From positions 80,918 to 144,917 of the forward strand of contig CAMPDV010001090.1 in NCBI GenBank assembly GCA_946699065.1: a DNA stretch of 64,000 nt, read 5' to 3'. Positions 9,579 through 64,000 of this stretch are shown here, piece after piece. A model generated the notes under the pieces. The model saw only the letters and a list, made by a program, of their open reading frames with translations, ran no database searches and was not told the DNA's origin. Source of the DNA: Loxodes magnus (Eukaryota; Ciliophora; Karyorelictea; Loxodida; Loxodidae). Both the position numbers and the translations under genes were made by a program. Position 1 is the first letter of the stretch. Each line of letters begins with the position of its first letter.

Positions 9579-9729
9579 CTTACCTTATTTACTGATCTAT
9601 AGCTACTAATACTTGACTATTAACTTAACTATCTAGCCAAGTATTTTAACTCTCTCTATTTAACTCTCTCTATTCTTGAAAACATATTGGTTGAGATTAT
9701 TTATTAGGTAAAAAATAAGATTTCCTTGC

Positions 9730-10110: not shown

Positions 10111-10119
10111 AAGTTACTA

Positions 10120-12540: not shown

Positions 12541-12544
12541 TCAT

Positions 12545-20959: not shown

Positions 20960-21263
20960 ACAAGGAAGAAGTAAAAGGTGAGAAGTAAATAAGATTTATT
21001 AATAAATGATTAATTTAAGGTGTAATAAGAAAATGAAGTAACTAAAATTTTAAATTGTGATAATATCTCTAATCTTGGAGAGTTACCCGGTGTATTCCAA
21101 GATTTTGAAGAAAGTTTGTTTGAAAATGATCTGACTTTATAAGGGTAAGAAGTTTATGATTTTCGAATTTATATTCATTACTCAATGTATTCTCTGTTTG
21201 CAAAAACTGATTAGCAGTAAATCTGTTATAACTATTTAAAATTTCATTAAGAAAAAGAAACAT
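20960..21263 (-). CDS. Small conserved open frame, duplication copy 1
   Basis: ATG at 21263-21261 begins MFLFLNEILNSYNRFTANQF and stays protein-like for about 64 residues, then weakens. The same frame starts at 53299 in copy 2; in the first 50 codons about half of the differences are silent third-position changes. That suggests past coding constraint. No family recognised and no clear stop. Confidence 0.3.
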
Positions 21264-21299
21264 GATGAGAACTACTTTTCACAAACATTAAAAGTTAAT

Positions 21300-25809: not shown

Positions 25810-25814
25810 TTTAT

Positions 25815-28450
25815 TTTTTGAATAAACTAAAAATTAAAAGAAACTAAATTTATGGCTTAAGAGATACTTAGATATTAATAGGATTATTTTATTAACTTAA
25901 TACTTAATAAATAGAAGAATAATTACTATTAAAATTAATATATAAAATGGAAGAATTTTCCCTCTAAAATATTAGCTATATAAATAATATTTAGTTACAT
26001 AGCTCAAGGATACTATGAATTTTAGGGAAATATTGCGAAATTAGTAAGCCTAAATAAAAATTAAGCAGGATAGCTAATTGATACCTATACTAGCCTATAG
26101 TAGATAACTAAATTAATATGCGTGACATAATATCAAAGAAAAATATCAAATATTTCTATCATTACAGAATCTTAACTTAAGTTATAATCACATCCGAGGT
26201 TTCTCGCTTATTAACTACAAATAACTAGGAAAGCTGGTAGTTAGTCATAACTAAGTTTAACAAATTTTCTGAAATGCTGATCTCTTAGAGTTGACAGATA
26301 GATGATATTTCCTGAAATTAGTTGAAAAACCTAGAAAGACTGAAGAACTACATTTAGTGCTTGATACTTGCTATATTGAAATAGAGTCATAAAAGAAAAC
26401 GCAAGATAGCATATTAATTTTGACTTATCCTCAAAAAATAGACTTGAAATAGAACCTCTTTAATCTTAAGTATTATCCATACTTAGAATAGAAATTAAAA
26501 TTTTAAGAATAGATTAAGAGCCACTAACATTAGAAAAGTATGAGTAACAGAAAAAAAAATTTAAAGCAACAAGCAAAAGGACTAAGTGTAAAGGGATTAT
26601 TTTACAGTAGCATGTAGGATAGAAACATTAGAATGTTCTAATTTTAATGAATATATGAAAAATTAAAGCTTAAGTTAGCATGTTAGATAAATTGCAGATC
26701 TTTTAAGTGAGCGAAATAAAATCACAAGTTATTAAAAAGCTAGTATGAAGAAATTCAAACACCTTTAAAATTGATTATAGTTAGCTATTAAAAATGGTAT
26801 TACTCTTAATATAGAATACAGGGTTAATTTACAGAGAAGTGCAAAATTCTTCTTAATTTCCTACTTATTAGCTAAGATCCATTTTAAACATGAAAATCTG
26901 GATCTAACCTCATACTTATTAAGAATAATAAAAGTATTATAATCTTTATAGCTCTGTATGTGAAAAAACTTATCATTATTCTAGCTGAGAAACAAAAAAT
27001 GAACGAAACTTAATAATAGCAAGAAATAGACGCTCCAAAATAAGAAGAAATGCTCAATGGAGTAAAGGTAATCCATTCGAAATTTCTGAAATGATTCAAA
27101 GAATTAAAGATATTCAGATTAGTCTAAATCTTAATCTCAGGGAATAATTTAAAGTACTAATAGCCAATAAAGTAGAAGCAGTTTTATTAATCAAGGCATT
27201 TAAATTGAATAATTTTTTTTCATAACTACTTAAGATGAAAAATAGCACTGAAGAGGCAGAGTTTTAAACAGATTATTTTTAAAAAACTTAAAATAGATCT
27301 GCTGCTTCTTTTATCTTCAGGTGGATATTTAAATAATTGGAAAGATATTCTTCTGATAAACTTATAGAGCAGATAAATTTAAATGTACTTAACAGCTTTT
27401 CCAATAATGAAAGCTAAACTAAGAAACAGTAAATGAGTAAAAATAACTGAAAATTAGTAAGGTAAAATAACTAGAAATAAGGCAAATAAACCTTGCTATC
27501 CTTGGAGAAATAGCTAAATGAATGATTTTAAAGTTTGTTTGAAATTAATGAGCCATAAAAGGAATTGATTTTATAAGAGTATTAATAGATAGGTAACCAA
27601 AATGCAAGTAGAAATATATTGAGAATAAATTTTAATATCCTTTCAATTTATCCACATTTTCAATCTTTAGACTTTATCAAAGATACTAATTAAAGTAAAG
27701 TGATAAACTAAGTTAAAAAGTTAGAATGATCAAGATATGAGCGACAGGCAAAACAGTAATCGGAGTAAAAGCGAAAAATAATAAAAGTAAATTAGACAAA
27801 GGATATAAAACCAGGCTACTCAAAAATTTCTAATTAAAAAACTTGCAAATACTAGTCAAATTTAAAAATCTATTTAAGCTCTAATTTGCAAAAATTATAA
27901 GTAAGCAGAAAAACTTACTTAAGTTTTAAAAAACCTACTATGATATTAAAATAAAAAGGAATTAAAGCAACGCCAAATGAATATAAGAGTTAGAGAATAA
28001 ATCAGTTTCGCTATTAACTTGAGATAAGTATCCTAGAAATCAGGGCTACATAGAAAGAAGGCAAGTGTCTGAGAATAAAAAAATGATAACAGAAAGAAAT
28101 AGTAGGATTTGGCTAAAGAATACAAAATCAAATAAGAAAAGCCTAAATATTAATTTTCTCGTTTTTCTATATAAGATAATACCACAAAAAATAAAGCTAT
28201 AAGGAATTGACAAAGCACTTTGAAAGAAACTTTAGTATCTAGAAAAATATTGAAAACATATCAACTAAACACAATAGTAAGAACTTGTATAGAAAGACGA
28301 AGAAAAGTTAAAAAAATTGAAGAAAATAATTAAAAAGCAGTTTAATAAGGGAAAAAATTGAGATAATTTGTCGAAAGCAGAAAATAAAAGTGAAAAGAGC
28401 AGTCAAGGTCAAAGAGAATTATGTAGGAGAGTTTAAATTAATCTGATTAG
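25815..28450 (+). pseudogene. Decayed coding-like DNA upstream of TRIM-like gene B
   Basis: The plus strand is A-rich and gives protein-like pieces (for example EELHLVLDTCYIEIES at 26340, KAKLRNSKWVKITENQQGK at 27410). The homologous stretch in the second duplication (60170-62800) carries several 1-nt indels relative to it, so the frame is not conserved and at least one copy is dead. No family recognised. Confidence 0.35.
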
Positions 28451-28479
28451 TAACTCTAAAATTAGTATTTAAAGATGTT

Positions 28480-28995
28480 TTAGAACTTTTGAGATAGAAA
28501 TAAAATGATTATTATTATAATCATGTTTTAAAGTTCGAAAAAGTGAATAAACCAGTTCGTACTGCAAAAAACGAGCAAAGAAGCCTTTAAATTCAGAGAT
28601 GGTATTGAATAAAAATTTTAATAGTTAGATTGAAAGGTGAAGTAGTTTCAATAAGTGTGATCAGCTAATAAACTACTCATCAATCTTATTGAACATAATA
28701 AGACCTATTTCATGAGCAGAAACGTGTTTAGTTTAGTAGATAATTTTCTCATTTTTAAAAGCTTAGAAATGAGTTAACCTAATCTTAATAACTATTTTCT
28801 TACCAGCAAAGATTTCAGACATATTCCCCTTCAATTACTTTTCCAATCAAGCTAATAATGTCTTTCGAGAATCTCTCATTTTTTGTTTACAAAGCGAAAT
28901 TCTTCCCTCTTTTATGTTGGGTAAAGGAATAATAAAATCGATGATCTCTTAAGCAGCAATTCTGGTAGGATCTGATTTTAAGCAAGACAAAATTT
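28480..28995 (-). CDS. Small hypothetical gene, duplication copy 1
   Basis: Minus-strand frame with segments SDPTRIAAQEIIDFIIPLPN, MRDSRKTLLAWLEKQLKG, NMSEIFAGKK and HVSAHEIGLIMFNKIDEQF. The Met of MRDSRK is at 28879-28877, but good protein sequence lies upstream of it, so the true start is probably near 28990 or beyond. The second duplication (62850-63340) has 1-nt indels that break this frame twice, so only this copy could be functional. A GTAAG...TTAG stretch inside could be an intron. No family recognised. Confidence 0.4.
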
Positions 28996-29134
28996 AATTT
29001 TTTAACCTGAATTAGCAAAGTTTTGGATGAAATTCTATATGTTAAGTATTAAGCTATGAAATTAAGCTTAGCAGGATTATAAAACTTATACCTATAAATT
29101 ATATAGATTTATTAATAATAATGCCGGCTGAATT

Positions 29135-29480
29135 TGCTTCTGTTTAGTGAAAATCCCTGTACATTTGGATAAATAATAAACTCCTGCTAAAATTTAAAGC
29201 TAAAAGAAGTCCTTTGTGCTAAGATAATTATAAGCAATAATAAAAGCAAGATATAGATTGAACGCAATAAACATGGCTAGCATTTCTTTGTATATCGACA
29301 TAGAAAATTCTACAATTTGAGAGCTTTAGCCAAATAATTACTCCTAAAATATGAGAAATTAAACTAATATGCTACGTATTTGTTAAGGTTACCATTATTT
29401 AATCTTTAATAATAAAATTTATTTCGGTTCTTCTATATCTACTTCCTTTGATAGTATAGAGAATAAACTCAGCTTTGCTC
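29135..29480 (-). pseudogene. ABCC transporter fragment, end of second membrane domain
   Basis: On the minus strand a frame with SMSIYKEMLAMFIAFNLY, LAFIIAYNYLSTKDFF and QILAGVYYL resembles the last helices of the second transmembrane domain of ABCC/MRP transporters (RxD...FIAF...STKD...LAGVAISYAL). It ends exactly where the long duplication copy 1 ends. The nucleotide-binding domain that should follow is at 63490-64000 in the opposite orientation. The call rests on pattern resemblance; upstream (29480-29650) is less clear. Confidence 0.45.
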
Positions 29481-36830: not shown

Positions 36831-38365
36831 TCACTACAGTAATGAAATTTATTCTTACAACCTTGATTTCCAATAACATTCAAACTTACCCCCTTATTAA
36901 TTTTTACATTCATACATTCTATCATAATTACAATTTATAGTACCAACTAAAAATAGCCATAAAACAATTACCATCTATAAATAAAATATCCTATAAAGAC
37001 ACCTTACATTCTAAATTAATTAAATTCCAATTACATTCTAGTAAAATATGTAATGCTAAAATACCATAATCTAATATTGTTAAATAAATAACTATTACCA
37101 ACTTTAAAACATATGTCAAATTTTAAACTACTCCCTAAAATTATTAGTAGATGCTTACGGACTATGTAGTTAAGAATATTAAACCTTTACTTACAGGCTA
37201 TAGTTTTAAGATTATTAAATCTTTACTTACATGCTATAGTTTTAAGAATATTAAATGCTTATTTACTATCTATAGTTTTCAATATTAAATGCTTACCCTC
37301 TATAGTTTTAAGAATATCAAATCTTTAATTACTATCTATAGTTTTAGGAATATTAAATCTACCTATAGTTTTCAGAATATTCAATGTTACTTACCTTCTA
37401 TAGTATTAATAATATTCAATCTTACCTTCTATATGTTAACAATATTCAATCTTTAACTATATTAAATATCAACTTTAGAAATCTACCTCCTTTAATAACA
37501 TTATTTACCATCATATTATTTCCCAAATTTAACTCCATTTCAACCTTTTCCCCATCCATTATATTATAAGATCCTATAGTCTATTTGTTCTTTAACTTAT
37601 TGTCATTCTTAAAGATGTCTAATTATCATCATCATAAATTTGTTTATTCTTATATCATGTTCTTTAGTTATAGGATAGAGGAAATTTTATTTTACTGTAA
37701 GCTTCACAGATTTATTATTCAGAGATACTATCGACATTTAGATTTCTTATTTCATGACCTTTGTCGATTAAGAATAGGAAACTTACTACTATTATTATTA
37801 TTATGGCTTAACTTTTTATACCTCTTAAGGATTAACCGGCTTCAACATATTCTACTACTTGACCTCAGATAATTATTACTAAGGATACTATGTCGCAAGC
37901 ACCTATTTCTCATTCAACAGATACTAAACCTATTTCTCAACACCCATCTTCTAACTCTATTAAATTAAATTAAAAATAATATAGTTTGCTTAATAGCTTT
38001 GAATCTTCTAACTCTATAGGTCCTATAACTACTATCCCATCTACACAATCTTTCTGTCATTGTCAACACAAACCTTGTTAAGCTTCTTCAAAGCATCCTT
38101 AGTTACAACCAACTCATTTACTATTTGTGCTCTCTTCTATTAAATACTCGATACTTGCTAACTCAACTACTAAATCTAAGTAAGATAACTACCGTTAACC
38201 TGATTTAATGTATCCATTTAGACTTTCATTCTATCCCTCTCCTCACACACATTAATCGATACCTAGGAGATCTAGTAAAAGATTTTTTAAGATTCCTTAA
38301 CTAACTTTGATACCAACTACTCCACTCTAGGATGAATACTACTTTCTTAGGTGGCTTATTAAACA
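36831..38365 (-). pseudogene. TRIM-like/ubiquitin-like family, truncated copy C
   Basis: The 5' part is cut off by the 4.96 kb repeat at 38366. What remains is a coiled coil of its own sequence (MKVQMDTLNQVNGSYLTQIQ, NELVVTKDALKKLNKVCVDN, VLATQYPQQQLSEVKQQ) joined to the shared MSIVSLNNKSVKLTVK of the ubiquitin-like domain. One extra nucleotide then shifts the frame; the continuation KNDNKLKNKQTIGSYNIMDG is intact in the next frame. The intron chain (36834-37508) is well kept and ends in TGA at 36833-36831. It is a paralogue rather than a copy of B or D. Confidence 0.65.
36834..37508 (-). other. Chain of intron-like units with single-codon exons, copy C
   Basis: Read on the minus strand, more than 20 GT...AG units. 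Triplets between them in order include gag, tta, aag, aag, none, ata, agg, ata, cat, cct, tcc, gga, ttg, later aat, aat, atg, ttg, aat, ggg, gtt, then TGA. Units here are mostly 27-34 nt with a different core (TTTAATATTCTTAAAACTATAG), so they were not copied from B or D recently, yet the triplet spacing is the same. Confidence 0.75.
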
Positions 38366-41319
38366 TTACCTTATTTACTGATCTATAGCTACTAATACTT
38401 GACTATTAACTTAACTATCTAGCCAAGTATTTTAACTCTCTCTATTCTTGAAAACATATTGGTTGAGATTATTTATTAGGTAAAAAATAAGATTTCCTTG
38501 CTACTTAAACAATAACGTCTATGCTGAAGGGATTTTAGTCTAATAAGCTTAAAATAAAGTAATGGTACTTTGTATCCCCTTTTGCTCTAAAGGTTTAAGT
38601 AATTATTCATCTTTATGTAGATTAAAAGTATGTGTCTTATGGATCAATTAGCAAGATTAGTCTAAACATTTGATGCTCAAATTTTTCAAGAAATAATAAG
38701 ATGCGCAAGTGAGAGAAATATTGTGGTTACATGGAAGAAGCATGGGGACTTTGATCTATCGATATCTGGGTTGGAAGACATTTAAGGTAATTAGTTTGAT
38801 GATGATTTTTAGAAAATGAATGGTTAGCTTAGATGAGTAGAATTAGCAGAATTAAAGAAAAAGAATAATAAAATATTAAAGTTACTATCTTATTTTATAT
38901 ATCTATTACTATATAATAATTATTAAAAAGAATTAATTTTTATATTAATCTTAAGCAATAAAAATATAATTAAAATATCATTTTATTAAAAAAGGGATTT
39001 TTGAAAACTTTAATTATCATAAATACTTTCTTTATCAAAAGATCTTTGCTAATATTTTTAATCATTTAACTATTAACTTTTAATATTCCAGAAAACTAAT
39101 TCTCTTCCTACTCTTTTTTCTGCATGTATTTTTAATGGTCATTATATGTAAATTCTGCTAATTGCTGCAAACAGAGAATACATTAAGTAATAAATATAAA
39201 TTAGAAAATTTTAATATATAACCATTACTAAAACCAGATAATCTTCAACATTTACCCTTCAAAATCTTGGATCCAATCAGAGAACTCTCTTAGATTAGAA
39301 ATATAATCACATTTAAAAATAGTTGTATCACAATTTTTTGATGATGGTAATTTTTGTAATTATGCCTTATATCTGATAATTAATAATTGGATCTTTCTGG
39401 TGTTCTACTTGTTGAGGTTTGTTGATTTCTAGTATTGAAAATGTTATTGATTTTAGCATGGTGTATATTTTGATTTATAGACAATAAATATTAAATTAAT
39501 GATTTTACTAAATCAATTTAATTTTTTTACTAATATTATTATTTTTCTTCTAATTTTAGTTCAAAAATCTAAATTTAAAATAAGTACCTTTCATTATGTT
39601 AATAGATTTAATCTAGTTCAAATTTATAAAAATTAAGGATATTTAAAAAATTTAGTTTTATAAATTAAAAAGAGTAATTTATTAGTAACATTATAAAATA
39701 TAATTATAATTAACAATTGTATCATTTAAAAAACTATTATTCAAATTATGTCTTAATTATACATTTTTTAGCTCACATCATTGTGCACAAAGCATAAACT
39801 TCAAATTATATCAAACCTTTATATTTTTAAATCATAGATATTCAATTACTATATTCACATTTAGAATTAATCAATATCCAAATTCTAAATTTATCTTCTA
39901 TTCAAAAATTCCTTAAACAAATCAAAAAACTAACCAAGTCTTTATTAGTGGATCAACAGATATTCATAAGTTCTAACTTGAAACATTTTAACTTTTTTGC
40001 TAATTAATATGTTTTTTCACTCATCTATTTGTTAAATATTTATATTCAATTTATTTAACAAAGAAAAATACATTTTTAGTTATAATTTTAGCAATTCTCA
40101 ATTCATAAATATACATATCAAATCATTAATTGTCTTTTTATTACATTATCTTTACCTATATTAAATATATAACTAAATTCATCAATTCTTATTTTAAAAA
40201 AACTAAACATTCTATCAAATCACTAATAGGATCAATATTTCAAATCCATTATTCAAATATATATCCAATATTTACTATTAAAACACTAACCTTTTCTTCA
40301 TCTAAATTCTTACCAAAAACAATAAATTAATCTTATAACTATTTTTAAATATTAAACATCCTCTAATACTTATTATCTAATAATTTTTAACTTTATCATT
40401 ATTTTATTTTTATTATCATTTTTTGAGCCTAAATAATAAAATTTAAAAAATTCAGTACGAAAATATTTTTTTGTATAAAATGCTGAACAAAAAGCGAATA
40501 TTATTTGTTTAGTCTAAAAATAATTAAAAGTGAATATAAAAAACTTTCTTAGACATATTATATTCAGTTTTTTTAAATTTTCTTTTATTTTCACAAAATC
40601 TTTATAAGTTCTTTTGAATTAAAATGACATTTTGATTTTCAAGTTTTCTAACACATAACATTAAAAAAATTCGATTTTTAACTTTTCGATTTCTCAACTA
40701 TAAAATAATTTTTATCCACTCTTTAATTTCCAAAAAATTAAGAAATTTTTTATTATTTTAAACCTTTTAAAAATTTAAATAAATGAATTCGCATATTATC
40801 TTTAAAACTTTTCGAATTCTATAATAAAAAGCATATCAATTTATGCTTATTATTGAAAAAAAATTTAACTCTAACATAAAACTAAAATTTTTCTCTTTTT
40901 TTGAAATTAAAAATCCTTAAAATATTTCTATCTTATTTGCATATAATATATAAAAAAATTTTTAATTTTAAATATATGCTTTTTCAAAAAAATTTTCACA
41001 CACCACAACCACCCTTTCAAAACATTTTTAAAAATTTTAACTTCTTCATATATAGACCTAAAATAGCAGAAAATAAATCAATTAGAAAACTTTGTGTCAT
41101 TATTTAAAATTTTAATTTAGAAAAATTATTTAAATACTTAGCACTCTTTACATTTTTTAAATTTTATTATGACTTGCATCTTTTTATCCAGTTTTTACTT
41201 TATTATTCCGTTAAATAAGATCGAACTTGTGCTAATCGATAAGTTAAAAAAACAAAATAAAATTTTCGTAAATGTTTTAAGCAAAATTTAATAAAAAACA
41301 AAAAAATATCATAACAAAA

Positions 41320-42270
41320 TTGACCAAATTAACGAAATTAACCGAATCGAACAAATTAACCAAGCCAACCAAATTAGCCAAATTGACAAAATTATACGAA
41401 TTAACCAAAATAACCAAAATAAACAAATTAGACGAATTGACCAAAATAAAAAAATTAATCAAATTAATCAAATTAACCAAAATATAAAAAAATAAACCGA
41501 ATTAACCGAATTAATCGAACTAATTAAAGTGATCAAATTAACCAAATTAGCCGAATTGAACGAATTGTCCAAATCATGCGAATTAACTAAATTAACCAAA
41601 TTAACTAAAGTGACCAAAATTAACTAAATTAACCGAATTTACTTAATTAACCGAATCGAGCAAATTAACTAAATTAACTGAATTGACCAAATTATACAAA
41701 TTAACTGAACTAACTAAATTTGCCGAATTTACTTAATTAACCGAATCGAGAAAATTAACAAAATTAACTGGATTGACCAAATTATACGAATCGAGCAAAT
41801 TAACTAAATTAACTGAATTGACCAAATTATTCGAATTAACCGAATTAACTAAATTAACTAAATTGACCAAATTGATCAAAATAAATAAATTAACCGAATT
41901 AACCAAATTAACCAAATTAACTAAATTAACCGAATAAACCGAAATGACCAAATTAAGCGAATTGAACAAATTAACTAAATTAACTAAAGTAACCAAATTA
42001 TACGAATTATACGAATTAACCGATTTAATCAAATTTTACGAAAAAATCGAATTAACTAGATTAATCAAATTGACCAAATTGACCAAAATATATTAATTAA
42101 TCGAATTAACCAAATTAACCAAATTATACGAATTAACCGAATTAACCAAATTAACTAAATTGACCAAATTGATCAAAATAAATTAATTAATCGAATTAAC
42201 CAAATTAGCCAGATTAACTGAATTGAGCAAATTAACCGAATTAACCAAATTAAATGAATTAACTAAATAA
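41320..42270. repeat. 9-bp minisatellite, array 2
   Basis: Same AAATTRACY units as 12545-13360, about 130 bp longer, with internal duplications and losses, while the flanking DNA is almost unchanged. Confidence 0.85.
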
Positions 42271-43069
42271 AAAAATGATTTAAAAGCATAAAATTTTTAA
42301 AAAGCTCTTTTATTTAAATATAATTGATTCTAAATATAAAACTAATTAAAGATAAAAATAATTTAAATAGCTTTATAAAATAGTATAATTAATTAAAATC
42401 ATAATTGATTGTATTTTGTGTTTCAATTTTATAAAATAAGTAAACTTAGGCTTTATAAACTGGATATTTTTTCTATTAATAGTATTTAATAGTTTTAAGG
42501 TTTAAATTCTTACTTTTATAGCCATTTTTAGCAATAAAGAATCTACACACTGATATTAGGAATTGGCGCTGTGCTTGAATAAAAATAGAGGATTGCGTTT
42601 AAGGTGATTTGTTAGGTTTAAAGTATAATAATTGATATATTAAATTTTGGTTAATTAGGTGTATTTAAATGATATTTGGAAAGTTGTATAGTAGTGAGTT
42701 AAAAAAATATAGTTAGAGCATGAGGAAAATAAATGATAATTAAGGTTCTAGGTTGTCTACAATTATAAATGATAAAATTTATCAAGCATCATAAGTTAAA
42801 TTAAATTTTATCAATAAATATATATATTTTATTATATTTGCTATTTTCATTAAATATATAAAACAACATAAATAAACTACAATAAAAACACTTTCTAATG
42901 CTCACAAATAAAGCTAATAATTGTTTATTATATACTTATAACCAACCTTTGAATACTCAAATAATCATTCTATCATTATATCTGATACTAATATAAACGT
43001 ATAAAAAGAATAATTATTAATATTTTTTAAAGATTTAAATTAATAAGATTCATAATTAAGTATATAGTT

Positions 43070-43328
43070 AGCCTCCTTATTTTATCACTAAAGTAAATCA
43101 ACACCACCTTTATTTATATTAATCCACAAACTTACCCCCTTATTTTTTTAGACATTAACTTGCATTCTATTATAATAAAAAATAAATATGTTACCACCTA
43201 AAATTAAAATAATCATAAACAAATTACAATCTATAAATGGAAGATATTCTATAAACTTTCTTACATCAAAATTAATTAAATTCCAATTACATTATATATT
43301 GGATTATTCAAATCAAATTACCTCTAAT
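43070..43328 (-). pseudogene. 3' tail of TRIM-like copy A, carried in repeat copy 2
   Basis: Duplicate of 14160-14417, including the last intron-like units and the TGA exon. Broken off at 43328, where unrelated AT-rich DNA begins. Confidence 0.65.
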
Positions 43329-43690
43329 GTCTTTTTTAATCTCTAAACTTTTTAGAAAATTTTTAATTCTCTCTACTTTTACTTCTCCTTTAAAAATAAA
43401 TCCATTCTCCTTTATATCCTTTACTTAAAAAACCTCGCTCTTTAATAAAATTCTATCAAAACTCCCTATCCCTTTTTACACTTTAATTAGTTCCACTTCA
43501 AATTTTTTTATCCAAACTTTCACACTTTTATTCCAACAGAAAAAATCTCTCATAGTGCAAACAATGAGCAAAAAAACAAATATTTTATTTTAACACAGAT
43601 TTTATACATTTAAACATTAATTTAAATATAAACTATTACACGTCATTAAATTATTTAATAACATTTTTAAAATAAATAATATATAATAAA
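43329..43690. repeat. Fragment related to the 54.4-55.9 kb repeats
   Basis: Contains TCATAGTGCAAACAATGAGC followed by AAAAAAACAAATATTTTATT, and neighbouring TTTAGTTCC...CACACTTTTATTCCAAC, matching 55180-55310. Confidence 0.5.
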
Positions 43691-50599: not shown

Positions 50600-51180
50600 A
50601 AAATAAGTGAATGATAAATTTAGTTTATAAGGTAAATAGTAAATTTTAATTGATTATTGTATATAATATTTAATTATTTAATTTAATTTTAACTTAAATA
50701 TATTTTCTAATGGATAGTTCGTTGATCTCTTTAAATAAATGGTAAAACAGTTTTGCTTATAGCATAAAAATCTAAAGGGATAAGCATTATATTTAATTTA
50801 AGTTATATAGAAATAATAGCAAAAATATAAGAAAATAAAATATTTTTCTTATATTTAAATGATTTAAAAGGATGTAAATATGTTTTAATAATAATATACT
50901 TATAAGTATAATTAATTAATTAATACTTTTATACTTAATTCTATTTAAACTAAGTCAGGATATTATTTTCCTTATATCAGATAATATAATTAAACTATTA
51001 TAAAGTAAGTTATAAAATTATAAATCAAAATAAAAATATATAATTTATTAAGAGTATCTGTTTAACTAATATTTTAAATTACCTAATTATTCTCTAGGTA
51101 AAATTACTTTTTTTCTTAAATATGAAATTCTACCTATTTTGTTTTTTAAAACTGGAAAATATAATCAACCACGATAAAAC
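50600..51180. other. AT-rich stretch, no gene recognised
   Basis: No convincing frame, repeat or RNA. Confidence 0.4.
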
Positions 51181-51189
51181 TAAAGGTAG

Positions 51190-51960
51190 GTCTTTAATAT
51201 TTAGATAGAATATTCCAAGAACATACGGTCCTGTATTGTCTGTAGCGATATCTAGTAACTATAATTGAATCGTATCGGGAAGTAGAGATAGAACGATAAA
51301 GATATGGGACTTTACAACTGGCTAGTGTAAGGTTACTTTATAGGGACATACGTATCCTTTATTATCTGTAGCGATTTCAAGAGACCAAAAAGAAATCGTA
51401 TCGGGAAGTTCTGAAGGTACGATAATGATATGGAACTTAGCAACTGGTTTGTTAAAAAGTTCTTTGTAAGGACACAAGAAAGGTGTAAATTCTTTAGCGA
51501 TATCAAGTGATTGGAATTGAATTTTATTGGGAAGTTATGATAAATCGATCAATAAATGGGACTAGCTAACGAAAGGGTTCTTTGTGGGGAGATACGAATC
51601 CTTTATTATCTGTAGCGATTTCGAGTGGCCAGAATTGATAATATCAGGAAGTATTGATAAGATAATCAATATATGGAAATCCACAATTAGTCAGCTACTT
51701 CGAACTCTTCAAGGTCATTCAAATAATGTATAAAATATTCAATTTAGTAATGCTTCAAGTGTTTCAATTTCTGGATCATGTAGATATGGAACTTTTATAT
51801 AGGTGAATGTATATAAACTCTTTAAGGCTAAAAAATGATCTAAATTCTATAGCATTGGGTAAGGACAACAAATAAATAGTATCAGAAGGATATGATAATA
51901 CTGTGAGAAAGTGGAAAATAATAAGTTGAGAGAAAGTAATAACTATTAAGACTTTTAATT
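51190..51960 (+). pseudogene. WD40-repeat protein pseudogene
   Basis: Five WD40 repeats are recognisable. Repeat 1: GPVLSVAISSNYNWIVSGSR then DRTIKIWDFTTG; repeat 2: EIVSGSSEGTIMIWNLATG; repeat 3: WNWILLGSYDKSINKWD; repeat 4 is frame-shifted at its start and back at LIISGSIDKIINIWK; repeat 5: RTLQGHSNNVQNIQFS. After that the frame is lost again although GYDNTVRKWKIIS can be read in another frame near 51890. Repeats 1-4 share nearly identical DNA (GTAGCGAT, ATCGTATCGGGAAGT), implying recent internal duplication before decay. It lies just left of duplication copy 2. Confidence 0.75.
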
Positions 51961-53099: not shown

Positions 53100-53299
53100 T
53101 TATTTAATCTTAGAGAGTTCCCCGCTGTATTTCCAAGATTTTGAAGAAAGTTTTTTTTTTAATTATCTGGCTTTATAAGGGTTAGAAGTTTATGATTTTC
53201 GAATTTATATTCATTACTCAATGTATTCTCTGTTTGCAGAAACTTATTAGCAGTATATCTGTTATAACTATTTAAAATTTCATTCAGAAAGAGAAACAT
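53100..53299 (-). CDS. Small conserved open frame, duplication copy 2
   Basis: ATG at 53299-53297 begins MFLFLNEILNSYNRYTANKF, matching the frame at 21263 with mostly silent or conservative changes for ~50 codons, then diverges into a poly-A/poly-T run. Probably a remnant of a small gene in the ancestral segment. Confidence 0.3.
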
Positions 53300-54429
53300 G
53301 ATGAGAACTACTTTTCACAAGCATTAGAAGTTAATACTTCATTGATTAAAAAAATTCGAAAGCATCTTTTGATAAATAAAGCATTTATAATAATTAAAAT
53401 TTTCAAATACTTTTTTAGTTAAAAAATTTAAATTTAAATTTAAAATTACTAATTAACTTTTATTATGCTATGAGATTAAATATACACAGAATTAATTCAA
53501 ACTTAAAAAATCAACGTTATTTAAAATTTTGTCTTATAGATTGAAAAAAGTAACCTTTTTAGTAAAATTATAGAATAATTATTTTAAAATTAACATTTAA
53601 AATTGTATTACTTTAAAAATTATTCAGATTATCTTTGTCTTAATTATAAATTTAGAACTAGTATTATCATGCACTAAGCATCAATTAAAATTATTTAAAA
53701 TTAACGATCTAAATTTTTTAATAAGTAGATATTAAATTATTATATTAGGATTTGAATTAATGAATATCAAAATAAATAATTTTCATATCTTCAATTAAAA
53801 ATTAAATTGTTTTCTCAAATTAAAAATTAAACTTTTTAAGCTTTATTAGTTGATCAGCAAACATTCAAAAGATCTAACTTGAAAGATTTAAATTTCTTTA
53901 CTATTTAATATATTATTTTCTCTCATCTCTTTTTTAATAATTTATAATTAATTTATTTTATGAAGAAAAATAAATTTTTAATCATAATTTGCTATTTAGC
54001 AATTCTGAATTCATAAATATACATGAAAAAAATTAAATATTTTCTAACTGTCTTTTTATTAAATTTATCATTCTTACCTATAATAAATATCAAAAATAGT
54101 TAAGTCAATAAATTCTTATATTAAAAAAGTAAAAATTGTATAAAATAAATCTATATTATAAATATTTTTATTTTAAATTTAGAGAGATGTAATTAACAAT
54201 TTATGTAGAATAAAAATGATTAACATTATTAAAATATATCTAAATATATTTATTCTTTTTAATATATATCTCCTTAAAAATTTTTCCATCCTTAAAATTT
54301 CCTGAAATAAAAAAAAAGAAATTTTAAAAATATTTTTTAATTACTAACTTCTCTAATACTTTTTATCTAAAAATTTTATACTTCTAACGTTTTTATCTTT
54401 ATAAGAATATTTAAAGCCTTAGCATTAAA

Positions 54430-55960
54430 ATTTTAAAAATTTTTATTCCGTCCGAAAAATCTCTTGTAGTGTAAAACGCTGAGCAAAAAAACAAAATAAA
54501 AATTTTTCCATTTTATTTCGATGTTATAGTTAAAAAATAACTGATAGAGATTATTAAATAACTTTATTAGACATTTTTTATTCAAATTGTCAAAATTTTT
54601 TCCAAAATTAAAAAAAATTATATTCAATGCTTAATTACATTATGGCTCCCCAAATTTTTTAACCCATAACCTTAAAAAATATTCATTTTATACATATTCG
54701 ATTATTTAAATTAAAAAATATCCGATCTCTTTAAATCAAAAAAAAATTTCTTATTCCGTCCGAAAAAACTCTTGTAGTATAAAACGCTGAGCAAAAAAAC
54801 AAAAATAAATTTTCACGCTTTTTGACTGTAAAAACCTTTTTTACTTTTTAAATATTTATTTTCGAAATTAATCTTAAAAAATTTTTAAATTCTTGAAACC
54901 AAAAAATACTTTGTTCTTAAAAAAAAAAATTAACTCCAAACTAAAACGAAAACAAATTTTGAATTTTTTTTTGAAATAAAAAATCTTAAAATTTTTTTGT
55001 CTTATTACAGTTCTAAAAAAAAAAAATTTTTAATTAAACAAAATTTTTTAATCCAACTTTTTATTCCCAATATTAATATAAACTTTTCACTAATTCCGTT
55101 TCTCCTTTTAAAATTTATCCATTCTCCTTCATATCCTTTACTTAAAAAACCTCACTCTTTAATAATTTAATCACCACTCTCATCCCTTATCCCTTTTTAC
55201 CCTTTTTTAGTTCCGTTTCAAATTTTTTTGTCCTAACTTTCACACTTTTGTTCCAACACAACTTTTCCCTATAGTGCAAAACGCTGAGCAAAAAAACAAA
55301 TATTTTATTTTCATTATTTTTATAACTCTTTTAAACCCTTTTCTACTTTTTCAATTCTTATTTTAAGAATTGTCTTAAAAAAAATTATATGTTCTTAAAT
55401 TCAAATAATATTCTTAAATTAAAAAAAATTACACTACTTAATTCTAAAAATTCTTTCTTTTCCTTTTTCAATTATCTAAAATTCAAAATTCTAAAACTAA
55501 TTTTGTCTTATTCACAAACTCAAAATATTTTTTTCATTTAGAAATATTTTTACTCTCCTCTCTTAAATTTAAAAAATATATAAACTCTCAACTAATTCCA
55601 TTTCTCCCTTTTAACTAATCCATTCTTAATCTTATTAACTTATACTTAAAAAACCTCACTCTTTAATAAAATTCTATCAACATTAACATCCCTTTTTACC
55701 CTTTTTTAGTTACGTTTCAAATATTTTTTGTCCTAACTTTCACACTTTTGTTCCCACAGAAACATTTTTTTTAGTAAAAAACAATGAACAAAAACAAATA
55801 TTTTATTTTCATTATTTTTAAACATTTAAAAACATTTAAAAACATTAATTTAAATATAAAACTATTACACACCCTTAAATTATTAAACATAAAATCTTTA
55901 AAATAAATAATATGTAATAACTTTAAAATAATTAAATTTAAATAATATTATAATTATAAA
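54430..55960. repeat. Repeats with an AACGCTGAGCAAAAAAACAA core
   Basis: Copies of a ~50-bp core at 54445-54494, 54753-54801, 55250-55310 and a diverged one at about 55750, spaced 300-500 bp with related AT-rich filler (CACACTTTTGTTCC, TTAGTTACGTTTC). The same core is at 22501-22551 and 43525-43580. No coding. Confidence 0.6.
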
Positions 55961-56355: not shown

Positions 56356-59300
56356 TCACTACAACCATGAAATTCATACAACCTGAATTCACATTAACAA
56401 ACTCACCCCCTTATTTCACAAAACATACACTCTATTACATTATCTTTAAACCATTTGTACCAACTTATATTAATTAAAACTTACCATCTATTTAATTAAA
56501 ACCGTAAACAACAACCTTACATACTAATTCTTACTCCAATTATTACATTCTAAAATAAAATATCTAAACTAAAAATACCTTATTCTAATATTGATTAAAA
56601 TATATATTACTATCCGAAACTTATAAACATATGTGTCAAATCGTATATTACCATCTAATCAGTAAATACTTACGTTCTATAAGTTAAGAATATTAAAATA
56701 ACTTACCTAAGTTAAGAATATTAAAATGCTTACTTTCTATAAGTTAAGAATATTAAAATAACTTACATGCTATAAGTTAAGAATATTAAAATACTTACCT
56801 TCTATAAGTTAAGAATATTAAAATACTTACCTTCTATAAGTTAAGAATATTAAAATATTTACTAACTATAAGTTAAGAATATTAAAATGCTTACTTTCTA
56901 TAAGTTAAGAATATTAAAATGCCTTACTTCCTATAAGTTAAGAATATTAAAATAACTTACCTAAGTTAAGAATATTAAAATAACTTACATGCTATAAGTT
57001 AAGAATATTAAAATATTTACTAACTATAAGTTAAGAATATTAAAATGCTTACTTTCTATAAGTTAAGAATATTAAAATGCCTTACTTCCTATAAGTTAAG
57101 AATATTAAAATAACTTACCTAAGTTAAGAATATTAAAATAACTTACATGCTATAAGTTAAGAATATTAAAATAACTTACGTACTATAAGTTAAGAATATT
57201 AAAATACTTACTCACTATAAGTTAAGAATATTAAAATAACTTACATGCTATAAGTTAAGAATATTAAAATGCTTACCAACTATAAGTTAAGAAATATTAA
57301 AATAACTTACCAACTATAAGTTAAGAATATTAAAATGACTTACCTAAGTTAAGAATATTAAAATAACTTACCAACTATAAGTTAAGAATATTAAAATGAC
57401 TTACCTAAGTTAAGAATATTAAAATAACTTACCATCTATAAGTTAAGAATATTAAAATAACTTACCTAAGTTAAGAATATTAAAATGCTTACCTAAGTTA
57501 AGAATATTAAAATAACTTACCTAAGTTAAGAATATTAAAATAACTTACCTAAGTTAAGAATATTAAAATAACTTACCTAAGTTAAGAATATTAAAATAAC
57601 TTACCTAAGTTAAGAATATTAAAATAACTTACCTAAGTTAAGAATATTAAAATAACTTACCATCTATAAGTTAAGAATATTAAAATAACTTACCTAAGTT
57701 AAGAATATTAAAATGCTTACCTAAGTTAAGAATATTAAAATAACTTACCTAAGTTAAGAATATTAAAATAACTTACCTAAGTTAAGAATATTAAAATAAC
57801 TTACCTAAGTTAAGAATATTAAAATAACTTACCTAAGTTAAGAATATTAAAATAACTTACCTAAGTTAAGAATATTAAAATAACTTACCTAAGTTAAGAA
57901 TATTAAAATAACTTACCTAAGTTAAGAATATTAAAATTACTTACATGCTATAAGTTAAGAATATTAAAATGCCTTACGATCTATAAGTTAAGAATATTAA
58001 AATGCCTTACGATCTATAAGTTAAGAATATTAAAATAACTTACCTCCTATAAGTTAAGAATATTAAAATAACTTACCTCCTATAAGTTAAGAATATTAAA
58101 ATGCTTACATTCTATAAGTTAAGAATATTAAAATAACTTACCTAAGTTAAGAATATTAAAATGACTTACTTCCTATAAGTTAAGAATATTAAAATAACTT
58201 ACAATCTATAAGTTAAGAATATTAAAATGCTTACATCCTATAAGTTAAGAATATTAAAATGCTTACATTCTATAAGTTAAGAATATTAAAATGCCTTACC
58301 TATTTTAAAAAATAAAAGCTTAGAAATGTAACGTACATCCTTTAATTAGATTATTTACCATCTACATATATTATAAAAAATTTACTCCATCTCATTTATA
58401 ACTATTCTCCATCCATTATATCATAAGATTGCATTGTCTATTTTTTCTTTAACTTATTGCCATTCTTATAGATAGCCAATGACCATTTGTATAACTTAGT
58501 TTATTCTTCTATCATTTCATATAGCTATTTGATAGTAGTGTCTTGCTTAACCGCAAGCTTCACAGATTTATTATTCGGAGATACTATCGATATTATGGTT
58601 TCATATTTCGTTATTCTTGTTCGTAACTCCTTCAACTAACTAGTTAACTATTCTCTTTCCTCCAATAAAATTTATATCTAGTTCTCCAATTTAGATCTCT
58701 CCTATTTCAAACTCTCTATCTACTAACCCAACTCATGATTCTATAAAATATTATCATTATTAGCATTAGTAACCACATTCAAATCATTCTCTCTCTAACT
58801 ATTTTGCTCACTCAATCTATTGATTTAAACCCTTAAATGATCATTGTCCTTTCTCTAAAGATCAAACTCATTCTACAACTCTCTTATCCTTTACTCTTTC
58901 TATAAATCTTGCTTTTCATACTACTACTATTAAGATTAATTCTTCTAGTCCTTCTCTTAAACAACCTACAACAACTCACTTATTCGCAATTTATATTAAA
59001 CACCCTCATTCGATAAACTTTTTATTTACTCACTCAAACTCTTAGACTATTCCTCTAACTTATCTTTATATCCTTATAACTCGAAATCCTTTTACTACAA
59101 GATAGCATTCTACTACTAGATCAAACTCCTTATTTATAATTATTGATCCTCTATTACTTTCTAGTTACGAGATATTTATTCCCTCAAGTCAGTCAACAAC
59201 ATATCCTTATCTCTTATTACCTAAAGCAACTTTTATATTTATTCTTCACTTTCCTTTTTTACACTCTCATATGATTTAGCCTACAACTATAACTCCTTTC

Positions 59301-60165
59301 ATAAATGCTATATAGTTATCTAAAAAGATTATTTTTATTCTCTAACTCGCAACTCTTATAGTGGCTGAATCTCCTTTATCATTCTCTCAAAGACCTAAAC
59401 TTCCATATTCTTTAAACTAAGAATAGCCTTATACTAAGAATATTTTTACTCATCCTTTATTTACTTCTCTTACAACTATACCTCCAATCTCTCTATCTCC
59501 ACCTTCTTTTTCTCACATTACTATATAGTAACCTATTACATTGACCCGATACTCTCTAGTCTTTCAAAAAGATTATTTTAACCCATTTCCTACCTACACT
59601 ATTCACCTTAGTCCTATACTCTTAACACCACCTCCTCACATGCTTACTCTAAACTTCTCTTGATTTTATCATAGATCTATACTATATATTTAATATTTAT
59701 CGCATAATCCTCAAACAATTACTTTTATCATTGAACTAAAACAGAAGAATATTGCTTCAACCTCTCCTTTATAACACTCAAAGTCATTTACATACGAACT
59801 TACATAGTAGGAACGATCTCCTCTTATCTAACACATTGATGATCCTTATGAGAATCCTATTGACATTTTTCACATATTAATGCACTGTCACTCAGACAAT
59901 ATAAAGCTAGAATCTCATTATGCTACTAACATATACTCAATTAGCTTTATTTGGACTCCTCTTAAAGATGTAAATTTAGTATTTCCAATTCTTCAATTGG
60001 TCTATCAGTGATGATGTTGTGCTTTCTACAGTTGAACATCTATTGGATATTGTAGAAACCTTTCAAACATTTTTCACAGATGATACATCCACAGTCCAAC
60101 TTTCTAGGCTTTTTAAGCTCTTAGTTGAACTTTTCTTCACAAGCTTTACATTTAGATGCTTGCAT
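56356..60165 (-). CDS. TRIM-like protein with ubiquitin-like C-terminus, copy D
   Basis: ATG at 60165-60163; 600 codons to 58366, then the intron chain, then TGA at 56358-56356. The N-terminus MQASKCKACEEKFNQELKK has the RING-like finger with DCGCIICEKC, the B-box is kept (SLYC-type spacing, CEKCQQDSHKDHQC), and the coiled coil matches copy B. The ubiquitin-like domain reads NNKSVKLAVKQDTTIKQL, YEMIEEQTKLYKWSLAIYKN, MQSYDIMDGEQLQMRW. One extra or missing codon relative to B, otherwise colinear; the multiple-of-three length between ATG and chain supports an intact gene. Differences from B are scattered, many silent. Confidence 0.75.
56359..58365 (-). other. Expanded chain of about 55 intron-like units, copy D
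   Basis: Read on the minus strand. Units begin GTAAG(T/C) and end CTTAACTTAG (28 nt) or CTTAACTTATAG (29-30 nt). The longer form is always followed by a 3-nt spacer (cat, aaa, aag, tta, gaa, tac, tga, ttg, atg, atc, gag, att, gat, aat seen); the 28-nt form abuts the next GTAAG directly. The centre (57330-57950) is mostly 28-nt units without spacer. The last set (56359-56670) is the varied one shared with B and C: triplets aac, atg, ..., aat, tat, atg, ttg, agt, ggg, gtt, then TGA TGA. Confidence 0.8.
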
Positions 60166-60169
60166 TTTA

Positions 60170-63100
60170 TTTTTTGAATAAACTAAAAATTAAAAGAAAC
60201 TAAATTTTAGCTTAAGAGATACTTAGATATTAATAGTATTATTTTTATTAACTTAATACTTAATAAATAGAAGAATAATTACTATTAAAATTAATATATA
60301 AAATGGAAGAATTTTCCCTCTAAAATATTTTAGATAGAATATTTTGTTACATAGCCAAGGGATAAGATAAATTTTAGGAAAATATCGGAAAATTAGTAAG
60401 CTTAAATAAAAAATTTAGTATAATAGCTAGATGATACCTATAATAGCCTCTAGTAGATAACTAAATTAATAAGCGTGACAGAATATCAAAGAAAATTAAC
60501 AAATATTTCTATCATTACAGAATCTTAACTTAAGTTATAATCACATCCAAGACTTCTCGTTTATTAACTACAAATAACTAGAAAAGCTGGTAGTTAGTCA
60601 TAACTAAGTTTAACAGATTTTCTGAAATGCTGATATCTTAGAGTTGATAGAAAGATGATATTTCCTTTAACTAGTTGAAAAACCTAGAAAGACTGAAGAA
60701 CTACGTTTAGTGCTTGAATCTTGCTATATTGAAATAGAGTCTAAAAGAAAACGCAAGATAGCAAATAAATTTTGGCTTATCCACAAAAAATAGACTTGCA
60801 ATAGAACCTCTTTAATCGTAAGTATTATTCATACTTAGAATAGAAACTAAAATATTAAGAATAGATTAAGAGCCACTAACATTAGAAAAGTATGAGTAAC
60901 AGAATTAAAATTTAAAGCAACTAGCAAAAGGAATAAGTGTAAAGGGTTTTAATTTATAGTAGCATGTAAGGATAGAAACATTAGATTGTTCTAATTTTAA
61001 TGAATATATGAAAAATTAGAGATTAAATTAGCATGTTGAATATATTGCAGATCTCTTAGGTGAAGAAAGTAAAATAACAAGATATTAAAAAGCTAGTATG
61101 AAGGAATTCAAACACCTTTAAAAATGATTATAGTTAGCCATTAAAAATGCTATTAATCTTAATGTAGAATACCAGGGTTAATTTCCAGAGAAGTGCAAAA
61201 TTCATTTTAATTTCCTACTTATTAGCCAAAATCCATTTCAACTATGAAAATCTGTATCTCACCTCATACTTATTAAGAATAATAAAAGTATTATAATCTT
61301 TATAGCTCCATATAGGTAAAAAATTTATCATTATTATAGCTGAGAAAAAAATGAACGAAACTTAATAATAGCTCGAAATAGCAGCTCCAAAGTAAGAAAA
61401 AGTGCTCAATAGAGTAAAGGTAATCCATTCGCCATTTCTGAAATATTTAAAAGAATTAAAGATATTCAGATTAGCTTAAATCTTAATCAAGAAAGTAATT
61501 TAAAGTATTAAAACCAATAAAGTAAAAGTAAGCTTTATTAATCAAGGAATCTAAACTGAATAATTTTTTTCATATCTACTTAAGATGAAAAATAGCAATC
61601 AAGAGGCAGAATTTTAAACAGATTATTTTTAAAAAACTTAAAATATATCTACTGCTTCTTTTATCTTCAGGTGAATATTTAAATCATAGAAAATAAATAC
61701 TTCTGATAAACTTATAGAGCAGATAAATTTAAATATACACAACAGTTTTTCCAATAATGAAAGCTAAACTAAGATACAGTAAATGAGTAAAAATAATTGA
61801 AAATTAGTAAGGTAAAACAACTAGAAGTAAGGTAATTTAAACCTTGGTATCCTTGGAGAAATAACTAACTGAATGTCTTTAAAGTTTACTTGAAATTAAC
61901 GAGTCCAAAATAAGTTAAACTTAAAAGGATAATAATAGATAGGTAACCAAACTGCTTAAAGCAAGTAGAAACATCTTGAAGATAAATTTTTTATCTCCTT
62001 TCAATTTATCCACATTTTCAATCTTTAGACTTTATCAAAGATACTAATTAAAGTAAAGTGATAAACTAAGTTAAAAAGTAAGAATGATCAAGATATGAGT
62101 AAAAGCAAAAAATAGTAAAAGTAAATTAGACAAAGGATATAAAGCCAAGCTACTAAAAAATTTCTAATTTAAAGAACTTGCAAATCATAGTCCAAATTTA
62201 GAAAATTATTAAAACTCCTAATTTGCAAATATTATAAGTAAGCAGAAAAACTTACTTAAGTTTTTAAAAAACCTACTATGATATTAAAATAAAAAGGAAT
62301 TAAAGCAACGCCAAATGAATATAAGAGTTAGAGAATAAATCAGTTTTTCTATTAACTTGAGATAAGTATCCTAGAAATCAGGGCTTCATAGAAAGAAGGC
62401 AAGTGTCTTAGATTAAAAATGATAACAAAAAAGAAATAAATAGTAGGATTTGGCTAAAGAATACAAAATCAAATAAGAAAAGCCTAAATATTAAATTTCT
62501 CGTTTATCTATATAAAAATAATACCCAAAAAATAAAGCTATTAGGAATTGATAAAGCACTTTGAAAGAAACTTTAGTATCTAGAAAAATATTGAAAGCAT
62601 ATTAACTAAACTACAAAAGTAAATACTTGATAAAAAGTACTAAAAAAGTTAAAAAAAATTAAAGAAAAAGATTAAAGAGCAGTTTATTAAGGAAATAAAA
62701 TTGAGATAATTTGTCGAAAACAGGAAATAAAAGCGAAAAGGAGTAGTCAAGGTCGAAGAGTAATGTAGGAGAGTTTAAATTAATCTATTAGTAACTCTAA
62801 AATTAGTATTTAAAGATGTTTTAGAACTTTTTAAGATAGAAATAAAATGATTATTATTATAAATCATTTTTTAAAGTTCGAAAAAGTAAATAAACCAGTT
62901 TCGTACTGCAAAAAAACGAGCAAAAGAAACCTTTAAAACTCAGAGATGGTCTTGAATAAAAATTTTAATAGTTAGATTGAAAGGTGAAGTAGTTTCAATA
63001 AGTATGATCAGCTAATAAATTACTCATCAATCTTATAGAACATAATAAGACCTATTTCATGAACCAAAACGTGTTTAGACTATTAGATAATTTTCTCATT

Positions 63101-63340
63101 TTTTAAAAGCTTAGAAATGAGTTAACCTAATCTTAATAACTATTTTCTTACCAGCAAAGATTTCAGACATATTCCCCTTCAATTACTTCTTCAATCAAGC
63201 TAATAATGTCTTTCGAGAATCTCTCATTTTTTGTATACAAAGCGAAATTCTTCCCTCTTTTATGTTAGGTAAAGGAATAATAAAATTTGATGATCTCTTA
63301 AGCAGCAATTCTGCTAGTACCTGATTTTAAGCAATAGCAA
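60170..63340. pseudogene. Decayed coding-like DNA upstream of TRIM-like gene D
   Basis: Homologous to 25815-28995. Single-nucleotide indels against that copy destroy both the plus-strand pieces and the small minus-strand frame near 62850-63340. Confidence 0.4.
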
Positions 63341-63489
63341 GACAAAATTTAATTTTTTAACCTGAATTAACAAAGTTTTGGATGAAATTCTATATGTTAA
63401 GTATTAAGCTATGAAATTAAGCTTAGCAGGATTATAAAACTTATACCTATAAATTATATAGATTTATTAATAATAAAGCCAGCTAAATT

Positions 63490-64000
63490 AGCTTTTCATT
63501 GTTGCATATGCTTATCCATTACCTGAATCGATGATTAAGTCAGTTTAAACAGATAGTAGAAACAGAAATTTAATGATAAGTATAGAAAGATGTCATTATT
63601 ATGCTTAAGCTGATATAGAGAAATCAGTTCGTTCAGATAAAGAAACTGAAAATGGTTAAATTAGCTAAGGGAAAATTGAGTATAGAAAACGTATAATTGG
63701 ATTATATACCTTAGCTTTCTAATATACTCAATTTAGTTTATTTCATAGTTTAGGCTCATTAGGAAATAGGAATAGCAAGCAGAACTGGATCGGAAAGTCA
63801 TCCATTTTCTTATGATTATTTAGAATAGTAGAAGTAGAAAATGGAAAAATTATTATTTACGGAATGAATATATAAGACATATCTTTACATTCACTAAGAA
63901 AGTAGTTAAGTGTTATTCCTCAAGACCCCATAATATTTATTGGAAGTTTGAGAATGAATTTAGATCCCTTTGATGATTATGATGATTAAGCAATTATTAG
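63490..64000 (+). pseudogene. ABCC transporter second nucleotide-binding domain, frame-broken
   Basis: Starts where the long duplication ends. The frame reads PLPESMIKSVQTDS, SIERCHYYAQADIEKSV, SDKETENGQISQGKIEYR as in the linker of ABCC/MRP transporters. One nucleotide too many then moves the frame to NVQLDYIPQLSNILN ... IGIASRTGS. One missing nucleotide inside Walker A (expected TGSGKSS) moves it back to GKSSIFLWLFRIVEVENGK, NIQDISLHSLRKQLSVIPQD and GSLRMNLDPFDDYDDQAII. The two shifts compensate but alter about 40 residues including Walker A, so this is a young pseudogene or a sequencing error. Continues off the window. Confidence 0.75.

Follow-up and report, generated by a model that had tools for sequence, protein, structure and literature searches.

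A TRIM-like gene with a predicted protein tail joined codon by codon across dozens of ultra-short introns

INTRODUCTION

Extremely short exons and closely packed splice sites have been described in several systems. Schistosome micro-exon genes (MEGs) carry many consecutive, very short exons, mostly multiples of three in length; the account in PMC10526429 gives 10-20 exons of 6-81 bp (3-81 bp in its abstract; mostly 15 bp) separated by introns that range from 100 to almost 5000 bp, describes the products as secreted, and discusses protein variation by alternative splicing. Single micro-exons of 1-3 nt, for example in Arabidopsis APC11, are isolated as presented in PMC4674806, where intron definition and successive removal are argued for a one-nucleotide exon. 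In recursive splicing through zero-length exons, an acceptor is directly followed by a donor and the intron is removed stepwise (PMC5126111). Known zero-length cases subdivide long introns. Stwintrons are two nested introns that are also removed stepwise. Dozens of consecutive related introns occur in the snoRNA host SNHG14 (29 and 48 introns), whose introns carry RNAs according to PMC11608373. In Cryptococcus, intron gain by duplication of an intron-bearing repeat is reported to have added two introns (PMC2395259).

Here, we describe gene A, located on the minus strand of a 64,000-nucleotide stretch of DNA (the window). From its sequence, we read gene A as a functional TRIM-like gene (probability about 0.68) that would encode a B-box, coiled-coil, ubiquitin-like protein with a 45-residue tail, joined codon by codon from 42 exons across 66 ultra-short spliceosomal introns with 23 intron-intron boundaries. 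Like MEGs, gene A has many consecutive exons in multiples of three, but 40 of its 42 exons are a single codon, and the long-intron feature is absent, as its introns measure 19-37 nt. Its micro-exons stand dozens in a row rather than alone. As in recursive splicing, acceptors run directly into donors, here at 22 zero-length boundaries placed among one-codon exons in one array; these one-codon exons also set the array apart from stwintrons. Unlike SNHG14, the exons of gene A are in frame with a conserved stop, and the repeated unit is an intron plus a codon, present in up to 53 copies rather than the two introns gained in Cryptococcus. A first-pass annotation had stated that no described gene is known to have dozens of consecutive one-codon exons, and our search of the literature on one-codon, micro- or zero-exon arrays, mainly open-access, found nothing like the tail of gene A. 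We have filed this predicted tail as an extreme form of micro-exon gene.

RESULTS AND DISCUSSION

Architecture of gene A

The first exon of gene A comprises 600 codons (58366-60165, minus strand). It was modelled without an intron, and the intron density of the gene is therefore restricted to the tail. The exon encodes a RING-like, Cys-rich start, a B-box, a putative coiled coil, and a ubiquitin-like domain. Pfam identified the B-box at 9.6e-8 (above the Pfam cut-off), Rad60-SLD at 1.8e-7, and ubiquitin at 4.4e-6, and returned no RING match in the first-exon protein. The RING-like Cys/His cluster was recognized by eye, with a weak TRIM21 match over residues 18-112; the coiled coil has a weak TRIM72 match over residues 66-224 and was otherwise assigned by eye. 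All 16 PDB matches of the exon are weak and comprise TRIM-family proteins and a ubiquitin. Gene A has the B-box in common with TRIM/B-box proteins, and may also share the candidate coiled coil and RING-like Cys cluster that were judged by eye; it differs in its C-terminal ubiquitin-like domain and in the predicted codon-by-codon tail.

The intron chain opens in phase 0 with intron 1 (26 nt; 58340-58365, minus strand), whose donor reads TAT followed by GTAGATGG; this phase 0 donor is common to A and its paralogue B and was read by eye in copy D. The first one-codon exon (58337-58339, minus strand) is GAT in A, GAC in B, and GAG in C. Intron 2 (37 nt, 36 nt in B; 58300-58336, minus strand) abuts the first array unit with zero exon between. 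The regular array that follows (56677-58299, minus strand) consists of 53 contiguous introns of 27-31 nt. Its internal boundaries are 0 nt in 22 cases and 3 nt in 30, with no other length, and the junction between intron 2 and unit 1 brings the zero-nt boundaries of the gene to 23. The thirty 3-nt spacers comprise 14 different triplets. Each unit has GTAAG (GTAAA in two), 2-3 bases ending in A, the constant TTTTAATATTCTTAACTTA (with an extra T in one copy), and TAG or G. As the array is unbroken from end to end, units with an altered core cannot have escaped notice. The GTAAG...TATAG ends of many units equal the intron motif given for Oxytricha/Stylonychia in PMC5014332. One array codon (57212-57214, minus strand) is TGA, either sense or stop.

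Downstream lies an irregular chain of 11 introns of 19-33 nt (56359-56676, minus strand), whose exons are, in order, AAC ATG TTTCGGATA AATAAG AAT TAT ATG TTG AGT GGG GTT. A TAG acceptor then precedes the TGA that opens the last exon (56356-56358, minus strand), followed by a second TGA. In total, the chain has 66 predicted GT-AG introns (2, plus 53 in the array, plus 11 irregular); the GT start and AG end of these and of the 23 introns of copy B are built into the model. Exon spacing is 0, 3, 6 or 9 nt, and the 42 non-empty internal exons include 40 of 3 nt, one of 6 and one of 9. The predicted 45-codon tail reads D NDIENEEIIHMMLLLH(TGA)YHEKLHEKLKKHK N MFRINKNYMLSGV, a pattern of D-(30 array codons)-N-MFRINKNY-MLSGV.

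With the array split by its core, the location, minus-strand orientation, phase 0 and unit anatomy proposed in the first-pass annotation are borne out. Its estimate of about 55 units falls short of the predicted total of 66 introns, 53 of which are regular array units. Likewise, its rule of exactly 0 or 3 nt between units holds inside the array, but 6 and 9 nt occur outside, and its unit size of 28-30 nt is close to the 27-31 nt of array introns but not to the 19-37 nt found outside. The branch-like CTTAAC, described as present in every unit, was found in the array units but is weak or unclear in several irregular introns.

Paralogues within the window

Four further copies of the gene lie in the window. 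Copy B is near-complete (25809-23312), with a first exon of 601 codons (24007-25809, minus strand) and a chain of 23 introns, 10 of them array-type, with exons of 0, 3, 6 or 9 nt, ending in TAG followed by TGA (23312-24006, minus strand). Its tail reads D NNDLIDNLD K MFTQKEGYMLSGV, then TGA TGA, or D-(9 array codons)-K-MFTQKEGY-MLSGV. Copy C (36834-37508, minus strand) has about 21 introns with diverged bodies and the same codon-sized exons and ending. One of these introns is 58 nt, the donor there apparently being lost. The upstream part of C differs, and its ubiquitin-like region is, by eye, likely frameshifted. Copy D is degenerate (14174-14681, minus strand), and copy E (43085-43330, minus strand) is a 3' fragment near-identical to it. 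Both end in the exons ATT GTG AAT GGG GTG then TGA, with one GC donor. D and E are not independent, since E sits in a 95% identical duplication of D.

The ending ATG TTG AGT/AAT GGG GTT TGA (M-L-[SN]-G-V-stop) is common to A, B, and C, and is related in D and E. The number of array units is 53 in A, 10 in B, and about 8 in C. Between A and C, irregular introns differ in length in 10 of 11 cases, and exon lengths are kept save one (9 vs 3 nt). The reading first proposed for gene A, a phase 0 series of one-codon exons running to a terminal TGA, is thus supported at the level of sequence by the same structure in B and C, and the related ending of D/E and the frame constraint between the upstream exons of A and B (below) also favor it.

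Some further observations concern these copies. One irregular-intron donor (56610-56585 in A, 37098-37071 in C) seems shifted by 6 nt in A and B relative to C, with the frame kept. Genes B and A, together with decayed neighbours, are held in a segmental duplication (23617-29139 and 57973-63494, 90.5% identical). The duplication that includes D and E pairs 9580-14417 with 38366-43328 at 95% identity; 9-bp TAACCAAAT arrays are present at 12544-13357 and 41312-42268.

The intron chain against chance

We searched both strands of the window for chains of GT[AG]..[TCA]AG units of 17-40 nt with gaps of 0, 3, 6 or 9 nt. The longest chains were 67 units in A (beginning at an alternative donor, 58385), 23 in B, and 19 in C, and the next best in the window was 4. 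Ten Markov shuffles, one strand each, gave longest chains of 3 or 4. In the irregular tails of A, B, and C and all of D, the arrangement [TCA]AG-N(k)-GT[AG] occurred 36 times at k=3, compared with 5, 3, 2, 0, 3, 3, 1, 1, 4, 0, 2 and 2 times at k=0, 1, 2, 4, 5, 6, 7, 8, 9, 10, 11 and 12.

A splice-signal parser, in which exon length was free from 0 to 15 nt, placed internal exons in multiples of three in 66/66 cases in A, 22/22 in B, and 20/20 in C (108/108 together), where the start and end points were chosen by the analyst and units within an array are not independent. The introns in these parses spread over all classes modulo 3. Among 60 control segments outside these genes, 129/361 exons were multiples of three. 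A complete parser path was not found for copy D. Chance or base composition as the source of the chain is ruled out by the shuffles and the parser control. We also rejected the idea that the 3-nt rule stems solely from one homogeneous minisatellite, because the irregular introns and copy C keep the rule with diverged bodies.

Arrays away from any gene had been named in the first-pass annotation as evidence against a gene-based reading. Elsewhere in the window, allowing 3 mismatches, the 19-nt unit core was found 3 times, roughly as often as chance would give. Within the window the array unit thus occurs in this gene family alone, an observation that bears on a comparison with introner elements, whose copies are inserted in many genes.

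Constraint on the first exon and the reading of TGA

The first exons of A and B differ by 138 substitutions at 1800 aligned sites, a few of which arise from a 3-nt insertion misread by the ungapped comparison. Omega, the ratio of amino-acid to silent change, is 0.49 with TGA taken as Trp, and 2% of 500 neutral simulations reach the observed number of silent changes. The sole indel is that in-frame 3-nt insertion, in B near the exon end, and none breaks the frame. By our own count, the adjoining duplicated DNA (60300-63560) has 39 indels and 293 substitutions, and about 18 indels would be expected in the first exon at this neighbouring rate. Therefore, the first exon is under constraint.

There are 37 in-frame TAA and 43 in-frame TAG codons in the first exon of A, so numerous that TAA and TAG must be sense, as in ciliate-type codes. 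In-frame TGAs number 2 in A, both common to B, and 5 in B. Because the frame constraint continues past the two common TGAs, TGA is probably sense in the host organism, and our guess is that it is read as Trp, as in karyorelicts; Loxodes introns, however, are shorter, with a mean of 19.3 bp given in PMC11441545. On the same grounds, we do not favor reading TGA as an ordinary stop. If TGA were not sense, the first-exon and array TGAs would truncate the protein, and if the array TGA at 57212-57214 stops translation, the tail of A ends after 17 residues.

With TAA and TAG as sense codons, the array could in principle be translated unspliced as a repetitive polypeptide, and beyond the donor the frame does stay open, for 568 codons in A and 216 codons in B. 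We consider this scarcely credible, because with unit lengths of 27-31 nt the frame changes from one unit to the next and from copy to copy, and because C meets TGA after 20 codons, though that TGA may be sense.

The array could also be a decayed or non-coding minisatellite, that is, 3' flanking repeats of dead genes that look intron-like through descent from one intron. The window is rich in duplicated, decaying DNA, in-frame TGAs are present, and C and D look damaged, all of which fit such an origin. We nevertheless hold it to be quite unlikely in view of the frame constraint on the first exon, the GT..AG ends and multiple-of-three spacing kept where intron bodies have diverged, the ending common to A, B, and C and related in D/E, and the near-chance frequency of the unit core away from these genes within the window.

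Fixed introns and changing codons

The array triplets show pairwise differences of 0.66 in A (30 codons), 0.60 in B (10), and 0.79 in C (7). In contrast, the 19-nt core of array A has 0 substitutions in 1007 nt over 53 units, with one 1-nt insertion, and array introns, compared over their whole length, differ by 0.042 in B and 0.147 in C. Simple mutation after tandem duplication fails to explain an unsubstituted core beside near-saturated triplets, and the contrast is a question in itself. The options we considered are strongly constrained cores, diversifying selection on the codons, homogenisation of the introns, and a process in which intron RNA is copied and the junctions gain untemplated bases. 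We know of no precedent for fixed introns beside changing codons. With near-invariant introns and near-saturated codons, the tail of gene A may be hypervariable.

It is also conceivable that the introns themselves are the product, with each transcript yielding dozens of near-identical 27-31-nt RNAs in the manner of a snoRNA host and the exons being by-products. A core unchanged in 53 units of A apart from the single insertion, against 66% triplet difference, and introns of B that differ by 4% against 60% for its triplets, are what such a gene might show. On the other hand, the exons stay in multiples of three and end in a conserved stop, both needless for a host gene, the introns of C have drifted (15%), and the core gave chance-level matches outside these genes within the window and no Rfam match. 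We regard this alternative as very unlikely.

We then compared the exons and introns of the irregular tail between copies. In a division into five and seven exons that was picked after inspection of the data, and with an exon of unequal length omitted in comparisons with C, the five exons adjoining the array change faster than the introns among them, at 10/24 sites vs 12/124 for A-B, 7/15 vs 23/123 for A-C, and 12/15 vs 25/121 for B-C. By the same division, the last seven exons (MLSGV-stop and a neighbour) change more slowly than introns in comparisons with C, at 2/21 sites vs 47/143 for A-C (p 0.04) and 2/21 vs 42/142 for B-C (p 0.07); A-B is uninformative (0/21 vs 6/146, p 1). When the irregular tail is left unsplit, A-B exons differ at 10/45 sites and introns at 18/270 (p 0.0024), but a single 6-nt stretch, in which the donor has apparently moved by two codons, accounts for half of these exon differences, and 5/39 exon sites differ when it is left out (p 0.19). 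Unsplit comparisons of A-C and B-C, in equal-length exons, show no significant difference between exons and introns (p 1.0 and 0.11). Conservation of the tail end (MLSGV-stop) is therefore moderately supported by these sequence comparisons, and diversification of the tail middle is suggestive. The excess of codon change over intron change in the arrays fits a diversifying, recognition-type tail on an E3-ligase-like protein.

Proposed splicing of the tail

We propose that each intron is recognized as a unit in itself (intron definition) and that the introns are removed in succession. According to PMC5014332, ciliates have very short introns, and recognition across the intron is the mode presumed for Paramecium. 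As the exons measure 3 nt, two spliceosomes on neighbouring introns are not expected, which makes successive removal the natural model. Where an acceptor meets GTAAG, each removal would restore the next donor at the junction, as in recursive splicing through zero-length exons. Given a chain in phase 0 whose exons are all multiples of three, the tail would read in frame to the conserved M-L-[SN]-G-V-stop of A, B, and C, a step that the sequence supports. The copies probably came to differ in array size through tandem duplication of an intron plus a codon, each added unit costing one residue or none. With such exon lengths, the frame would also survive if any stretch of units were skipped, which might account for the expansion of the array. 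Gains and losses of units as well as errors in splicing would then be tolerated, and the tail could vary in length and sequence. As a tentative extension, the recognition tail of this TRIM-like family might be stored one residue per exon between interchangeable introns, such that array growth, array loss, and alternative splicing add, remove, or alter single residues while the frame is never broken and MLSGV-stop stays fixed.

Splicing might instead skip most of the array, with the donor at 58365 or an early array donor joining a late acceptor. The array would then behave as a single long intron whose many splice sites are interchangeable, and most of its codons would be missing from the protein. 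Donors and acceptors are near-identical and any joining keeps the frame, which would permit such skipping, and the near-saturated triplets of A, B, and C are as expected of unused sequence. Even so, the arrays hold to spacers of 0 or 3 nt, and every unit of A and B retains its intron signals. A 2-kb intron would also be unusual if the host resembles P. bursaria, whose introns are given as 15-100 nt, most < 40, in PMC12862383. Overall, we consider array skipping unlikely.

Finally, the units could be IES-like germline segments cut out at the DNA level, the window then being micronuclear. PMC1805493 describes the IESs of ciliates as AT-rich and as able to lie at intron positions, but the units have GT..AG ends with a donor consensus, and removal at these ends restores a frame common to the paralogues. 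This explanation seems to us highly improbable.

Several points sit less well with codon-by-codon splicing of a working gene. Introns in multiples of three are reported as depleted in ciliates (PMC5014332, PMC11441545). Such introns are not depleted in gene A (26/66), a misfit with the usual ciliate picture. Introns > 26 nt splice less well in P. bursaria as reported in PMC12862383, and, if this species is a guide, all 53 array units exceed that length. We also counted against the working-gene reading the in-frame TGAs, the confinement of the intron density to the tail, the lack of a complete parse for D, and the apparent upstream frameshift of C. The repeat array may contain assembly errors, but copies B and C make it unlikely that an artefact accounts for everything.

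If the tail is spliced as predicted, some 2 kb of transcript would present the spliceosome with 66 introns, separated by 3-nt exons or by no exon at all. This would be a severe natural test of intron definition and of the mutual avoidance of such close splice sites. Should RNA confirm it, gene A would stand as an extreme example of an interrupted gene, and its protein tail might be free to change residue by residue. Introns interleaved every ~30 nt would serve as nearby controls for the mutation rate, against which selection on single codons could be measured directly. Gene finders and read aligners easily miss such exons, and similar tails may therefore be overlooked elsewhere.

Searches for relatives and other features of the window

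Searches of viral and genome contigs with the array unit patterns gave 0 matches. The protein pattern gave 4 matches in viral contigs and 14 in genome contigs, none confirmed as a relative, and a plasmid search gave one match covering 8% of the query at 68.6%. No tRNAs were found, nor Rfam families at the gathering threshold. Pfam scans of window parts, in which frames were taken whole with introns left in, yielded only an LRR match below the Pfam cut-off, a WD40 fragment, and noise.

Other parts of the window also carry coding-like sequence. An ABC-transporter nucleotide-binding region was recognized by eye at 63640-63990; it is apparently split between frames at Walker A, it has an in-frame TGA, and it looks decayed. 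A Pfam scan of its frames, up to 63902, did not find an ABC match. On the plus strand, 4485-5420 holds a Cys-rich, coiled-coil-like frame with one in-frame TGA and no Pfam match at 0.01. WD40 repeats (Pfam WD40, 1e-26) in 126-bp tandem units occupy 51150-51840; two in-frame TGAs fall at an identical position of the repeat, and the frame seems to shift. Lastly, a repeated block, partly inverted and ~67-95% identical, occurs at 10200-12000, 21050-22550, 39000-41000, and 53100-55000.
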